A DNA stretch of 64,000 bases, from positions 108,036-172,035 of the forward strand of contig CANGIS010000002.1 of the NCBI GenBank assembly GCA_947454055.1, given 5' to 3'. The notes beneath the pieces are model-generated. The model searched no databases and was not told the origin of the DNA. It worked only from the letters and a program-made list of their open reading frames with translations. Shown in pieces: positions 27,164 through 32,516 of the stretch (positions are counted from its first letter, which is position 1; every line of letters begins with the position of its first letter). Position numbers and translations under genes: made by a program. This DNA is from Hyphomicrobiales bacterium. GTDB taxonomy: Bacteria; Pseudomonadota; Alphaproteobacteria; Rhizobiales; Beijerinckiaceae.

Positions 27164-27619
27164 TTAATCCGGCACCGCAAACGCCGTTTCAGTTTTAATG
27201 CGCTCCATAGCGAAACGCGACGTGACATTCTTGAGCCGCGCACCGGCAATCAGTCTTTTATAAAAGCCGTCATAGGCGGACATGTCCGACACCGTGACGC
27301 GCAACACATAATCCGTATCGCCCGCCATGCGATACACTTCCATCACCTCCGGTTGGGCGGCGACGAAGCCCGCAAATTCCGTAAGCCATTCGATCGAATG
27401 GTCGCCCGTCTCGATCGAGACAAACACCGTCAGCCCGAGCCCGATCTTTTCTGGCGAGACAAGCGCTACCCGCTTCAGGATCACACCGTCTTCCTCGAGC
27501 CGCTGAACGCGTTTCCAGCACGGTGTCTGCGATAGGCCGACGCGGCTGGCCAGTTCGGCAACCGATAGACTCGCATCCCGCTGCAACTCCGTCAGAATTT
27601 TCCGGTCGATGGCATCCAT
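27164..27619 (-). CDS. Lrp/AsnC-family regulator, DecR-like
   Basis: A 151-residue Lrp-type regulator. The N-terminal helix-turn-helix contains VAELASRVGLSQTPCWKRVQRLEEDGVI and the C-terminal RAM sensor domain contains PEKIGLGLTVFV, RMAGDTDYVLRV, YDGFYKRLI and VTSRFAMERIK. The TPCWKR, YD-FYKRL and SRFAMERIK-type motifs are close to those I recall for Escherichia coli DecR (YbaO), which senses cysteine. The gene diverges from the sulfonate operon across a 340-bp gap, so it may control that operon in response to sulfur amino acids. That link is inference. Confidence 0.88.
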   Translation of the reverse strand: MDAIDRKILTELQRDASLSVAELASRVGLSQTPCWKRVQRLEEDGVILKRVALVSPEKIGLGLTVFVSIETGDHSIEWLTEFAGFVAAQPEVMEVYRMAGDTDYVLRVTVSDMSAYDGFYKRLIAGARLKNVTSRFAMERIKTETAFAVPD

Positions 27620-27738
27620 GCGGGCGATCCTATCCTTAAAGAGTTCAAGAAAATATCGTTCTTAATTTCGAACAAATTCAATAGATCTATGCTACCCGTC
27701 AAGCCTGAGATAGACAATTTCCCATCATATTACTGAAA

Positions 27739-27768
27739 TATTCTCTAAAATGGGTGATATTTAGAATA
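27739..27768. promoter_or_regulatory. Dyad in the lrp/ssu gap (candidate operator)
   Basis: TATTCT (27739-27744) and AGAATA (27763-27768) form the ends of an AT-rich dyad, with CTAAA and TTTA continuing it inward after a 2-nt offset. It lies between the Lrp-type gene and the ssu leader. The rest of the 340-bp gap before the leader ORF (27620-27959) holds no gene; a TTGACG at 27808 could be a -35 element, but no convincing -10 was found. Confidence 0.35.
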
Positions 27769-27914
27769 AACTTCTCTTATTGCCGTACTTTTAAAAGAAC
27801 ATTCTCGTTGACGTCATACCCCCTATAAGGCATGTTTTATCCATCGGCTCGGAACGGGTCGGTCGCGGAGATTTGAAGCCAGCAGCTTGCACCGCGTCAT
27901 CAAATGCTAAAGCG

Positions 27915-27935
27915 CCACGAAAAGCGATTTCGTGG
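27915..27935 (+). promoter_or_regulatory. Leader hairpin before the ssu upstream ORF
   Basis: CCACGAAA and TTTCGTGG form a perfect 8-bp stem with a 5-nt loop, ending 12 nt before the AGGAGAAG ribosome binding site of the Cys-Cys leader ORF. It could influence access of ribosomes to that ORF. Confidence 0.45.
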
Positions 27936-27959
27936 GCTCCACACCATAGGAGAAGTACC

Positions 27960-27986
27960 ATGACGTCGCATTATTGTTGTCCATAA
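27960..27986 (+). CDS. Leader peptide ORF MTSHYCCP upstream of the sulfonate operon
   Basis: An eight-codon ORF (Met-Thr-Ser-His-Tyr-Cys-Cys-Pro, TAA stop) starts with ATG six nucleotides after a strong AGGAGAAG Shine-Dalgarno sequence. It lies 150 bp upstream of ssuA in a leader without other genes. Two adjacent Cys codons just before the stop are what a cysteine-sensing attenuator would need: ribosomes would slow there when cysteine is short. Several short inverted repeats follow (28049-28066 and 28095-28108) that could form alternative structures, but none has a T run, so any attenuation would be Rho-dependent or translational. Function is inferred from position and composition. Confidence 0.68.
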   Translation: MTSHYCCP

Positions 27987-28135
27987 TCCGGACCCGCTGC
28001 CCGAAGCGATAAACGGGATCATCTCATTCCCCCTTTCTATCCTGCGTGAATCCCCAAACCGGGATTGCCCTTAACGCGTCTGATCCGCGACGGCGGAGCT
28101 GTGGCTCCCGCGCCCATCCCAATAGGACGAAGCAC

Positions 28136-29098
28136 ATGTCAAAACGTCATTTCCTCAAGACACTCTTTACCGTCTCGATTGCCGCCATCGCGCTGGCACC
28201 CGCCTCCCTCTTTGCCCAGACAGCACCGAAGGAAATCCGCATCGGCTACCAAAAAAACGGCGTGCTGTTTTTGGCCAAGCAAACCGGAAAGATTGACGAT
28301 GCCTTCAAGGCCAAGGGTATCGACGTCAAATGGGTCGAGTTTTCCTTCGGCCCTCCGCTTTTGGAAGCGCTTAATCTCGGTAGCATTGATTACGGCACCA
28401 CAGGCGATAGCCCCCCGATCTTCGCTCAGGCGGCAGGGGCCAATCTCGTCTATGTCGCAGCCCAAGAAGCGGCCGGAGCGGGTGCTGCCATTCTCGTAAA
28501 GCAAGACTCGCCGCTGCAAACACTTGCGGACTTAAAAGGCAAAAAGATCGGCTTTGCCAAAGCCTCTTCGGCTCATAATTTGACGATTGCGGCGTTGGAA
28601 AAAGCAGGCCTTACCTATCAGGATATCACCCCCGTCTATCTCGCCCCCGCCGATGGTGCGGCGGCCTTTGCCAAGGGCGCCATTGATGCCTGGACGATCT
28701 GGGACCCCTTCTTCGCCGTCGCTGAAGCGCAACCGGGCACGCGGGTTCTGGCCCCTGCCAAGGGCATCGTAACGCAGAACTCCTTCTTTCTCGCCAATGC
28801 TAAATTCACCACGGAAAATCCGGAGCTCGTTGCTCTCGTCAATGCCAGCCTCGCCAAAACCGCCGGCTGGGCTGAGACGCATCGCGGCGAGGTGACAAAA
28901 ATCCTGACAGAGGCCACCGGCATCAGTGCGGAGGCTCAAGCAAAGGCCGTCGAGCGCACGGAATTCGTGATCAATCCACTTCGCGATTCCGTGATCAACG
29001 AGCAGCAGCGTATCGCCGACCGCTTCTTGGCTTTGGGCCTTATTCCTAAGCCGATTACGGTCAAGGACATCATCTGGAGGTGGAAACCCGCCACCTGA
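28136..29098 (+). CDS. ssuA: Aliphatic sulfonate ABC transporter, substrate-binding protein
   Basis: Periplasmic binding protein of 320 residues for alkanesulfonates. The signal peptide covers about residues 1-25 ([21 protein letters not shown], cleavage after SLFAQ-like). The mature part has [45 protein letters not shown] and [19 protein letters not shown], typical of SsuA. AGGA precedes the ATG at 28136; the frame is open upstream through the leader but without family similarity. It is followed by a hairpin with a T run before ssuD. Confidence 0.93.
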
Positions 29099-29180: not shown

Positions 29181-30359
29181 ATGTCCGTTACCTCCCTTCC
29201 TACCCCCTCGTCCGACAAGCCCCTTGATGTGTTCTGGTTCATTCCCGTGAGCGGGGATGGCTCTTATCTGGGCACCGAAAAAGGCCATCGGCCCGCCGAT
29301 TTCAGCTATCTGAAACAAATCGCTGAAGCCGCTGACCGCTTGGGCTTTGGCGGCGTTCTGATCCCGACCGGCAAATCCTGCGACGACCCCTTCATCACGG
29401 CAGCCGCCTTGGCCAGTCATACCGAACGGTTGCGCTTTTTGGTGGCGCTGCGTCCAGGCGTCGCCTCGCCCACCTTTGTGGCGCGGCAAGCCGCTGCGCT
29501 GGACCGGATCAGCAATGGCCGCTTTCTCGTCAACGTTGTTACCGGTGGTAATCCAACCGAACTCGCGGGCGATGGCATCTTCCTGCCGCATGATGAACGC
29601 TACGCGCATTCAGCAGAATTCCTGACGATCTATTCGCGGCTCCTGCGCGGCGAGAAGGTCGATTTTGATGGTAAATATCTGAAGGTCAAAGGCGCGCGGC
29701 TTGACTTTCCACCCGTCCAGCAACCCTCCCCGCCGATCTGGTTCGGCGGCTCGTCGGATGCAGCCCTTGATGTCGCCGCCGAACATGTCGACACTTACCT
29801 CACCTGGGGCGAGCCGCTTGCCGATGTGAAGCTAAAGCTCGATGCCGTACGCCAGCGCGCCAAGGCCTTTGGTCGCACGGTTAAATTCGGCCTTCGGATC
29901 CATCTGATCGTGCGGGATACCGAAGACGAAGCATGGGCAGCCGCCGACCGGCTGATTCAGCATCTGCCTGACGAGGCGATCGAAGCCGCCCAAAAGAAAT
30001 TCGCCGCCGAGTCAGATTCCGTCGGTCAAAAGCGCATGAGCGCGCTACATGGCCATGGGCGACGCGACAGCCTCATTATCGCTCCCAATCTCTGGGCCGG
30101 TATTGGCTTGGTTCGCGGCGGCGCAGGCACGGCCCTTGTGGGCGATGCCGATACGGTTGCCACCCGCTTGCGCGAATATCAAGCGCTCGGCATCGAGACG
30201 ATCATCGCGTCCGGCTATCCGCATCTGGAGGAGGCCTATCAGACCGCCGAACTCCTGTTTCCCAAGCTCGGCATTTCGGCGAAATCGCATCTCAGGCACA
30301 CCACCGCGCCGGGCGAGTTTGGCGTTAGCGGCACGGGCATCCGTGTCTCGGCATCGTGA
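29181..30359 (+). CDS. ssuD: FMNH2-dependent alkanesulfonate monooxygenase
   Basis: Flavin-dependent luciferase-like monooxygenase of 392 residues that splits alkanesulfonates to aldehyde and sulfite using reduced FMN. Motifs include [16 protein letters not shown] at the N-terminus, [14 protein letters not shown] (the conserved Cys), [24 protein letters not shown] and the C-terminal [10 protein letters not shown]. It follows ssuA and overlaps the reading start region of ssuC. Reduced flavin would come from the flavin reductase at the end of the operon. Confidence 0.95.
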
Positions 30360-30367
30360 GGTCAATC

Positions 30368-31210
30368 ATGAGCGATCTTGCCCTGCGGGCGGGCCATCCA
30401 GCCATCAAAGAACGGGGCGCTTTGGCGTCCCTTTCCCGCTTGTCGCCTGATCGATTGGTGCCTTGGCTCCTGCCGTTGATTCTGCTCGTGCTCTGGCAGG
30501 CTTCGGCCAGCCTCGGCACCTTACCGCCCTCTATCCTTCCGGCCCCGTTCGATGTGGCCAAAGCGGGCTGGCGGCTGTTGCGATCAGGTGAATTATTAGC
30601 CAACGCCCTGATCAGTTTTGAGCGCGCCTTGTCAGGGCTGCTCGTGGGCGGCAGCATCGCGTTTATTTTGGGCCTGTCCAACGGGTTATCTCGCCTATCG
30701 GAACGGGTAACCGATTCAACGATCCAGATGGTGCGCAACATCCCCAATCTGGCGCTTATTCCGCTTGTCATTTTGTGGTTCGGTATCGAGGAAGGCGCCA
30801 AGCTTTTTCTCGTTTCCTTCGGAGTGTTTTTCCCGATTTACATCAACACGTTTCACGGCATTCGCACGGTTGACCCGCAACTTGTCGAAATGGCGCGCTC
30901 TTATGGCTTTAAGGGCTTTGAACTGTTTCGCCGCGTAATTTTGCCCGGCGCGCTACCCTCCATTCTCGTCGGTTTGCGCTATGCGCTCGGTATTATGTGG
31001 CTGACCTTGATCGTCGCCGAGACCATCGCCGCCCAATCAGGCCTAGGTTACATGGCAATGAGCGCGCGTGAATTTATGCAAACCGATGTCGTGGTGCTGG
31101 CTATCTTAATCTACGCCCTGCTCGGTAAACTGGCCGATTCAACAGTGCGTGTGATCGAGCGTTACAGCCTTGCTTGGCATCCAGCCTATCGGAAAGGAGC
31201 CCGCGCATGA
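30368..31210 (+). CDS. ssuC: Aliphatic sulfonate ABC transporter, permease
   Basis: Inner-membrane permease of 280 residues with about six transmembrane segments and the BPD_transp_1 EAA loop (EMARSYGFKGFELFRRVILPGALPSILVGLR). A GTG at 30356 overlaps the ssuD stop, but the ATG at 30368 is six nucleotides after TGAGG and is the better start. Its stop overlaps the ssuB start (ATGA), so translation is coupled. Confidence 0.94.
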   Translation: MSDLALRAGHPAIKERGALASLSRLSPDRLVPWLLPLILLVLWQASASLGTLPPSILPAPFDVAKAGWRLLRSGELLANALISFERALSGLLVGGSIAFILGLSNGLSRLSERVTDSTIQMVRNIPNLALIPLVILWFGIEEGAKLFLVSFGVFFPIYINTFHGIRTVDPQLVEMARSYGFKGFELFRRVILPGALPSILVGLRYALGIMWLTLIVAETIAAQSGLGYMAMSAREFMQTDVVVLAILIYALLGKLADSTVRVIERYSLAWHPAYRKGARA

Positions 31211-31995
31211 CAGCGTTAGCGACCAAGCCGAGATCCGCCCAAACACGCGGCGCCTCCGTTTCCCTGCACGGCATCACCCGCAGCTTCGGCGATACCCCAG
31301 TGCTCAAAGGGATCGACCTTGACGTCCGACCCGGCGATTTCGTCGCCATTGTCGGCCAATCCGGTTCCGGCAAAAGCACTTTGCTACGGATCATTGCCGG
31401 CCTCGACCAAGGGTTTGAGGGCAGCTTTACCGTAGGCGACACAGCCAGCGAAAAAGCCTCGTCCCGCATCATGTATCAAGAACCCCGCTTGCTGCCCTGG
31501 GCCAGTGTGATCGAGAATGTCGCTTTCGGTCTCGGGCCCGTCCCCGCCCGCGATCACGCCTTTTCCCGCGCCCGCACCGCGCTCGAAGCCGTTGGCCTTG
31601 GTGATCGCGGCGGAGAGTGGCCGGACGTGCTGTCGGGCGGTCAAAAACAACGCGTTGCCTTGGCCCGCGCGCTGGTTAGCCGCCCAGATCTGCTCGTGCT
31701 CGATGAACCCTTGGGCGCGCTGGATGCCTTGACCCGTATCGGCATGCAGAGCCTGCTCGAACGCGTCTGGCAGGAGGAGGGCTTCACCGCCCTGCTTGTC
31801 ACCCATGATGTCGCCGAAGCCCTGACCTTGGCCGATCGTGTCGTGCTGATTGAAAACGGCCGCATTGCGCTTGATCTCGACATTCCCTTCGCGCGGCCCC
31901 GCCGACGCGGCGCCGTGCAATTCGGAGCCCTTGAGGACGAATTGCTCACCACCCTTTTGAAATCAAAATCCCAGACCGAGGAGTACATCATATGA
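31207..31995 (+). CDS. ssuB: Aliphatic sulfonate ABC transporter, ATP-binding protein
   Basis: ABC ATPase of 262 residues that powers SsuC. Walker A is VGQSGSGKST near residue 50, then the Q loop MYQEPRLLPW, the signature LSGGQKQR, Walker B LLVLDEPLGALD and the H loop VTHDV. MYQEPRLLPW is typical of nitrate/sulfonate/taurine importers. The ATG at 31207 overlaps the ssuC stop and the stop overlaps the flavin reductase ATG. Confidence 0.94.
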   Translation: MTALATKPRSAQTRGASVSLHGITRSFGDTPVLKGIDLDVRPGDFVAIVGQSGSGKSTLLRIIAGLDQGFEGSFTVGDTASEKASSRIMYQEPRLLPWASVIENVAFGLGPVPARDHAFSRARTALEAVGLGDRGGEWPDVLSGGQKQRVALARALVSRPDLLVLDEPLGALDALTRIGMQSLLERVWQEEGFTALLVTHDVAEALTLADRVVLIENGRIALDLDIPFARPRRRGAVQFGALEDELLTTLLKSKSQTEEYII

Positions 31996-32516
31996 ACCCC
32001 GCCATTGATCCAGCCATCTTTCGTCAGGCCATGCGGCGGCTTGCGGGCGGCGTTGGCGTCATCACGGTCGGCACCGGCGAGGACAGAACCGGCTTGACGG
32101 CCACTTCTGTGACGGCACTTTCCGCCGAACCGCCAAGGCTCTTGGTCTGCATCAACCGCAGCGCCTCCGCTTGGCCTTTGCTGACCGAGTATGGCTCCTT
32201 CGGCGTCAATCTTCTCGATTCAAACCAGCAGGATCTGGCCGACCGGTTTGCGGGTAAAAGCGGAGAAAAAGGGCCTGCACGCTTCACGGGCACGCGCTGG
32301 AAAAGCCTCGTCACTGGCGCCCCTCTGCTCGAAGGCGCCTTAGCCGCCATTGATTGCACGGTTGAGGAAGTCATCGAGCGCCATTCGCACGCCATTGTCA
32401 TCGGCCGGATCGAGGCGGTCGACCTTGGCAATTGGTCCGACCCTTTGCTCTATTGGTCAGGTCTATATCGCACGACGCGCGATCTGCCCTCGGTGCCATT
32501 TGCGGCAGTCGGCTGA
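31992..32516 (+). CDS. Flavin reductase (DIM6/NTAB family), SsuE role
   Basis: A 174-residue NAD(P)H:flavin oxidoreductase of the DIM6/NTAB (HpaC-like) type: FRQAMRRLAGGVGVITVG, GLTATSVTALSAEPPRLLVCIN, FGVNLL and the C-terminal GRIEAV...DPLLYWSGLYR. It overlaps ssuB by ATGA and is the last gene of the operon, so it most likely supplies FMNH2 to SsuD. It is not a homologue of the NADPH-dependent FMN reductase SsuE of Escherichia coli, but fills the same place. Confidence 0.9.
   Translation: MNPAIDPAIFRQAMRRLAGGVGVITVGTGEDRTGLTATSVTALSAEPPRLLVCINRSASAWPLLTEYGSFGVNLLDSNQQDLADRFAGKSGEKGPARFTGTRWKSLVTGAPLLEGALAAIDCTVEEVIERHSHAIVIGRIEAVDLGNWSDPLLYWSGLYRTTRDLPSVPFAAVG

Follow-up and report, generated by a model that had tools for sequence, protein, structure and literature searches.

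The leader ahead of an alkanesulfonate utilization (ssu) operon of a Hyphomicrobiales bacterium (Alphaproteobacteria; Beijerinckiaceae) was analyzed within a window of 64,000 nucleotides (nt), i.e., the whole stretch from 108,036 to 172,035 of contig CANGIS010000002.1 (assembly GCA_947454055.1); coordinates refer to this window, and features lie on the plus strand unless stated otherwise. We consider it probable that this region represents a two-input leader, in which an aptamer of the S-adenosylmethionine (SAM) type stands beside a ribosome-based cysteine sensor. This reading is supported by comparison between related sequences, showing a conserved element, near-constant spacing to a Shine-Dalgarno (SD) sequence, cysteine codons near the stop of the short open reading frame (ORF) behind it, and mostly plausible sulfur genes further downstream. 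Sequence comparison makes a strong case for a cysteine-codon leader and a good one for a SAM-II-like aptamer, with the joint logic of both sensors being suggestive only.

A preliminary description of this leader had reported an eight-codon Cys-Cys ORF with a strong SD sequence, and direct reading confirmed both. The ORF MTSHYCCP occupies 27960-27986 including its TAA stop (27984-27986) and recurs in relatives; it reads ATG ACG TCG CAT TAT TGT TGT CCA TAA, with the two adjacent TGT cysteine codons at 27975-27980, and is preceded by the SD sequence AGGAG at 27948-27952. The hairpin described ahead of it is likewise present (27915-27935), but it is not an independent attenuator stem. Rather, it forms the 3' part of a SAM-II-like element beginning at 27864, and hence outside the region first described. 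The earlier observation is confirmed as real and conserved, its anatomy being different from and richer than first seen.

The element, a SAM-II-like aptamer with an added 3' hairpin, spans 27864-27940 (positions 1-74 of the covariance model R1 introduced below, 69.7 bits), with its start recognized as the beginning of a conserved block on aligning leaders. Its anatomy was evaluated on a set of 99 elements, consisting of the window, 9 earlier loci, and 89 loci from a search of the order. The 5' strand of P1 (CGCGG, 27864-27868) pairs with CCGCG at 27892-27896, with 99.8% of all cells paired and two of five pairs changed on both sides. The P3 hairpin, CCACGAAA-AGCGA-TTTCGTGG (27915-27935), comprises 8 bp, and six of its seven modelled pairs changed on both sides. 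Taken together, pairing of P1 and P3 amounted to 96.3%, changes on both sides were seen in 74 cells compared with 20 in shuffles, and slid structures scored far below this structure, the alignment having been fitted to the tested structure, which favours it. The P2 core was paired to 98.5% and nearly invariant. The SAM-II binding pocket is formed by U10-U12, U20, U21, G22, C23, G42, C43, U44, and A45-A47 according to PMC3764141. Its equivalents in the window are UUU at 27872-27874 (U10-U12) and UUGC at 27887-27890 (U20-C23, also the 5' strand of P2), each present in 99 of 99 elements, as well as GCUAAA at 27906-27911 (G42-A47, also the 3' strand of P2), of which GCUAA was found in 98 of 99, the sole miss being locus L203, and the final A in 87 of 98. 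Part of this conservation follows from the search itself, as a covariance model selects similar sequences.

An extension of P2, pairing the P1 loop with the element end across P3, appears moderately supported, its proposed 3' strand in the window being GCTCC at 27936-27940. On fixed alignment columns, the signal was weak (70% paired, 60 of 500 shuffles reaching as high; 23 of 500 for covariation). A register-free duplex test, in which relatedness was partly controlled by dereplication at 75%, found the energy of the own locus to be matched by 0 of 300 and 0 of 1000 permutations for cysteine leader loci and by 0 of 300 and 1 of 1000 for loci with a direct gene. The pairings vary between loci, e.g., GAGC/GCUC, GGGC/GCCC, GACC/GGUC, and others. 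Single-strand folding rendered the window leader no more stable than shuffles (z -0.40), using a program that cannot show a pseudoknot.

Leader ORFs behind the element were selected by a fixed, untuned rule, taking the best combination of SD and start codon no more than 75 nt from the element, which fails for some loci (e.g., L173 and L206). An ORF of at most 45 amino acids (aa) was found in 91 of the 99 loci of the order set, the eight loci with a longer choice being dropped before the cysteine count, and 71 ORFs remained at under 60% identity. Cysteine occurs in 67 of these 71 non-redundant ORFs (shuffle mean 44, maximum 54), with 151 cysteine codons in frame compared with 60 and 40 in the other frames; 300 shuffles gave a mean of 73 in frame (standard deviation 7, maximum 91). 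Cysteine accounts for 9.5% of the leader residues (TGT 99, TGC 52), compared with 0.82% in 40 long ORFs of the window (TGT 30, TGC 93). A further 97 loci, of which 89 came from a search of the class and 8 from relatives, formed a second set; a short ORF with cysteine was found in 43 of them, and 39 of the 53 non-redundant short ORFs contain cysteine, with 98 codons in frame compared with 41 and 30 out of frame. Considering both sets, 107 of 130 leaders have their last cysteine within five residues of the stop. The leader start follows the element at a distance of 19 nt (interquartile range 17-22, 127 loci), and direct genes follow at 26 nt (45 loci). As a control, the same rule was applied to the 30 best canonical SAM-II loci from 199 genomes of the order. 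Short ORFs appeared in seven of these, and three carried one cysteine each from GTG or TTG starts (L221, L223, and L230). With three cysteine codons in frame and two and five out of frame, the control showed no frame excess, and for this reason its three cysteine ORFs leave our assessment unchanged. The leaders thus show what is expected of an attenuator, namely a short ORF with its own SD and clustered copies of the regulatory codon.

Chance occurrence of a short ORF without function is hardly credible in view of this recurrence across order and class with its controls, even though the window ORF has only eight codons and one leader of the same genus keeps a single cysteine. A further explanation holds that the cysteine codons arise only because an RNA sequence, e.g., TGTCG, is kept for base pairing, given that TGTCG recurs within hairpins of some leaders (e.g., L010 and L139) and that arginine is the commonest leader residue. 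We regard this as very improbable considering the frame-specific excess and leaders such as MTRLRC, where TGT occurs without a following CG. Moreover, both TGT and TGC are used within 34 of 60 cysteine runs from both sets, indicating that the amino acid is under selection.

Close relatives of the window were collected with its SsuA as query, giving 80 loci from named genome contigs, and 60 genomes, the own one included, were searched in addition. Seven leaders of the genus, one per genome, share the same layout throughout and carry the ORFs MTSHYCCP, MMSHCCCP (three), MTCLCCW, MTCLCCCR, and MVPYECRDAR, the last (L005/L088 of genome G009) being the weakest with its single cysteine. Mean pairwise identity was 0.90 for the element, 0.75 for the SD spacer, and 0.72 for the ORF, falling to 0.59 for the stretch from ORF to ssuA, with 0.64 for the first 60 coding bases of ssuA. 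The recurrence of the ORF in these leaders goes beyond chance. The element is present in 8 of 12 genomes of the genus, namely all seven with a close SsuA and G011. In the latter, the ORF behind the element (L271) follows without a cysteine leader and resembles by eye the flavin reductase of the window, and it had no NCBIfam match at a strict cutoff of 1e-60. Two of the eight genomes hold a second copy, the one in G009 being followed by the leader MVLPFCRFN (L268).

Candidate cysteine leaders upstream of ssuA in Bradyrhizobium, with ORFs resembling MMPSCSCFARRVK, were rejected, the sequence being a dispersed repeat. This repeat, TGTTTTGCCCGACG, mimics a conserved cysteine-containing leader ORF and occurs in three genomes, those behind loci L030, L066, and L032, with copy numbers of 38, 42, and 36 in one genome each, compared with 0 for reversed-pattern controls.

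Downstream of the window leader, the position ahead of a sulfonate operon was equally borne out. It is followed by ssuA (28136-29098, aliphatic sulfonate binding protein), ssuD (29181-30359, FMNH2-dependent alkanesulfonate monooxygenase), ssuC (30356-31210, permease), ssuB (31174-31995, ATP-binding protein, scanned as 31210-31992), and a flavin reductase gene of the RutF/HpaC type (31992-32516); ssuC and ssuB are given as the longest ORFs, and their true starts may be later. A divergent Lrp/AsnC-type regulator gene (27164-27619, minus strand) adjoins the operon. The location before genes supplying the amino acid, typical of attenuators, is hence found here as well. The ssu-centred arrangement first described did not hold up as a peculiarity, as the pair of element and leader also precedes genes for MetN, MetQ, sulfate-type binding proteins, serine acetyltransferase, and others. 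Pfam analysis of 30 chosen downstream proteins suggested a plausible sulfur role for 20, covering NMT1/SsuA-type proteins, MetN with NIL domain, MetQ, sulfate-type binding proteins, homocysteine methyltransferase, cysteine/methionine pyridoxal phosphate enzymes, class V aminotransferase, serine acetyltransferase, and luciferase-like monooxygenases. Four had no Pfam match, two were unclear (a GAF domain and an amino-acid binding protein), and four fell outside such families (Na/H exchanger, GroEL, glutamine synthetase, and class III aminotransferase), the latter being located 500-740 nt away behind a small protein.

These gene functions also bear on the idea that the leader acts through its cysteine-rich nascent peptide, which would detect metal or redox state and stall the ribosome, with the supply of Cys-tRNA being irrelevant. 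A copper-responsive cysteine-containing upstream peptide exists in Rhodobacter, and CC, CCC, and longer cysteine runs near the stop would suit such a role. The plausible sulfur families among the checked proteins speak against it, as do the lack of conserved cysteine spacing and the sufficiency of one cysteine in several leaders (MTRLRC, MTNRLC, and MTLSSCRR), so that we judge it improbable.

The small protein mentioned above, about 64-105 aa in length with the consensus DAYVIEVDDEAAGIVVREGGGFRFFAAEPAFAALEGQVFASAEAAERAAR, is encoded behind the leader in 79 of the 99 order loci, in 24 of the 97 further loci, and in 0 of the 30 canonical SAM-II loci, as detected with a profile iterated on the 99 order loci. 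Examples are L010:2759-2980, L006:2754-2957, L165:1754-1978, and, by eye, L344:3270-3467. Four members had no significant Pfam or NCBIfam match, and a fold predicted at pLDDT 80 gave no PDB match at E 0.001. The genome of the window holds no convincing copy.

The distribution of the element was assessed with covariance models. R1 was built from six sequences, two from Bosea, one from Terrarubrum (by its record), and three from other Hyphomicrobiales; they were taken as lying outside the genus of the window because their SsuA proteins are 60-65% identical to that of the window, compared with 75-80% within the genus. R1 found the window at E 1.2e-13 and, with a cutoff of E 0.01, matched 83 of 397 genomes in the order, corresponding to 27 of 142 genera. 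A second model, R2, built from the 99 elements and used for the class search, matched 77 of 385 genomes of the class. The six weakest R1 matches in the order and the seven weakest R2 matches in the class were left out of the fetched loci. Among the named carriers are Bosea, Terrarubrum flagellatum, Microvirga ossetica, Tistrella mobilis, Niveispirillum cyanobacteriorum (leader MTCCCP), and Azospirillum brasilense Sp7, whose leader ends in CCQMRNACCRR before a MetQ-type gene. Five carrier plasmid records other than Bosea list no feature over the element, their gene tables being incomplete, with one feature each in two records. Canonical SAM-II matches exceeded the cut-off in 144 of 199 genomes of the order, and some of these genomes (e.g., G079, G084, and G119) hold both kinds. 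Further weaker element matches were seen near the main one in L319, L321, L324, L287, and L252 (E 4e-4 to 9e-4), possibly representing tandem aptamers.

Several observations weigh against the two-input reading, the first group concerning the nature of the aptamer. At gathering thresholds, Rfam recognized within the whole window only two tRNAs, elsewhere than in the leader, and a lax search returned SAM-II (RF01726) with 22.6 bits (gathering 44) and SAM_alpha (RF00521) with 19.0 bits (gathering 36), at E about 0.07 for 601 bases. Gathering scores were reached by 0 of 20 variant loci, and likewise by 0 of 17 loci of another set, 14 of them carrying the element. In addition, 79 of the 99 elements have an L3 of 9 nt and 18 have one of 8 nt (2 unread), compared with 11 nt in 30 of 30 canonical SAM-II elements. 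Hence, of the features of SAM-II, the P1 stem, the P2 pseudoknot, and the pocket nucleotides are kept, and the Rfam gathering score and the L3 length are not. The cysteine leader might accordingly be a real cysteine attenuator combined with an element for a ligand other than SAM, e.g., S-adenosylhomocysteine, methionine, or a sulfur intermediate. The shorter L3, the extra hairpin, and the low Rfam scores would fit, as would the R2 scores of 68-78 bits for five named variant loci compared with 20-26 bits for six of seven canonical SAM-II loci, the seventh not being among the matches listed. We nevertheless hold another ligand to be unlikely, since the pocket nucleotides are kept and similar elements of the class set stand directly before MetZ, which canonical SAM-II also precedes: most of the 30 canonical loci run straight into a long ORF, and the four checked encode MetZ (three) and MetA. 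We infer that the element binds SAM or a near relative.

A second group of these observations concerns the coupling of both parts. Five direct ORFs checked in the class set encode MetZ (two), O-acetylhomoserine sulfhydrylase, CysG, and a sulfate-binding protein. Within the second set, 14 of the 97 loci have a short ORF without cysteine, 39 a longer ORF only, and one none; with 40 loci thus lacking a short ORF, element and cysteine leader are not always coupled. Conversely, three ssuA leaders without an element at E 1 (L003, L012, and L021) do have a short cysteine ORF, indicating that the cysteine leader can stand alone; these ORFs read MTNCCCYR, MSGRRSC, and MTCRCSFCL, respectively.

The third group concerns the way in which control might be exerted. 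The absence of a T-run terminator stated in the preliminary description was verified, with no terminator-like site in 27640-28140, and terminators were found in 11 of the 99 order loci compared with 23 of the 30 canonical SAM-II loci. A simulated stall at the cysteine codons exposed the next SD to 0.29, compared with 0.30 for control stalls and 0.25 for the free leader (n=51). Masking of the leader SD or start by the element 3' end, by P1/L3, or by L1 showed no own-locus advantage. The proposed ribosome-based cysteine sensor is well backed by the comparison, i.e., in-frame cysteine near the stop with mixed codons, the remaining residues varying between leaders, but not by the folding test of translational control. 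Six of the 11 terminators in the order set are located 123-131 nt downstream of the element, immediately after the leader stop. In genomes of one family, f35 (L137, L139, L142, L151, and L180), a terminator with a T-run closely follows the leader, and the cysteine codon region takes part in competing helices, making these loci a good place to study transcription attenuation.

For the two-input leader, the following mode of action may be proposed. The element adjoins the ribosome-binding site of the next ORF, in the class set often the structural gene, so that its ligand would limit initiation there. Ahead of a cysteine leader, this would place the cysteine sensor under the control of SAM. When Cys-tRNA is scarce, a ribosome would pause at the cysteine codons, raising expression of ssuA and the operon, and Rho-dependent control would fit as the link between stall and ssuA. 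With SAM bound, the element would block leader translation and keep the operon off; with SAM low, the leader would be translated and the operon turned on only if cysteine were also scarce. This combined logic is the least certain part and a tentative suggestion with a limited chance of being correct. Extending the concept to leaders throughout the Alphaproteobacteria, in which a SAM-II-derived aptamer below Rfam thresholds would control translation of a cysteine-sensing ORF and one mRNA would logically combine the levels of SAM and Cys-tRNA ahead of sulfur gene expression, often with the small protein encoded first, is a conjecture to which we assign slightly less than an even chance.

If true, two sensors known separately, an aptamer for a metabolite and a ribosome that reads a single amino acid, would be joined in one leader, which is found repeatedly across the Alphaproteobacteria and is missed by Rfam's own models at their thresholds. 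This would explain how the sulfur status of the methionine branch is weighed against that of the cysteine branch when scavenging is turned on, and an unannotated regulon marker would be gained.

In mycobacteria, leaderless polycysteine upstream ORFs (uORFs) precede sulfur genes and respond to cysteine. They share with the present leaders the cysteine codons in a short ORF before sulfur genes; here, in contrast to their leaderless start, translation would begin from the SD AGGAG behind a structured, presumably transcribed element.

SAM-II itself (RF00521, RF01726) is found before methionine and SAM genes (Corbino 2005, PMC1273637), in Sinorhizobium before metA and metZ (PMC9373788). The present element agrees with it in P1, the pseudoknot core CUUGC/GCUAAAG, the pocket nucleotides, and the association with alphaproteobacterial sulfur genes, and differs in staying below the Rfam thresholds, in an L3 shorter by two to three nt, in the extra P3 hairpin, and in the frequent cysteine leader ORF. 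The preliminary description knew of no worked-out alphaproteobacterial case for ssu, yet Cys-Cys attenuation had already been predicted in print for the uORFC-8-2 motif, a Cys-Cys uORF before cysS of Rhodobacterales (PMC8632094). Both systems have a short ORF with tandem cysteine codons, a proposed ribosome-mediated attenuation, and an alphaproteobacterial host. As described in the text available for that motif, uORFC-8-2 is confined to cysS, has a U-run in all cases, and comes with no named aptamer, whereas the leaders described here precede various sulfur genes, contain an aptamer-like element, and mostly have no terminator.

Riboswitches combined with translation or with a second sensor offer further parallels. 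A B12 riboswitch with a uORF before metE and ppe2 (PMC11260477) resembles the present case in that the riboswitch adjoins an upstream ORF which is translated and influences the main gene; ligand and phylum differ, and its abstract mentions no amino-acid codon signature. In open-licence PubMed Central text, no description of a cysteine leader coupled to a SAM-II-type element was found, and in the text accessible for a review of tandem riboswitches (PMC9481103) the terms 'leader peptide' and 'uORF' have 0 occurrences. This review describes tandem SAM-II/SAM-V and ppGpp/T-box leaders as two sensors in one leader, with the T-box reading tRNA charging. The leader ahead of ssu would follow the same principle of two sensors per leader, with the second sensor being the ribosome on the cysteine ORF.
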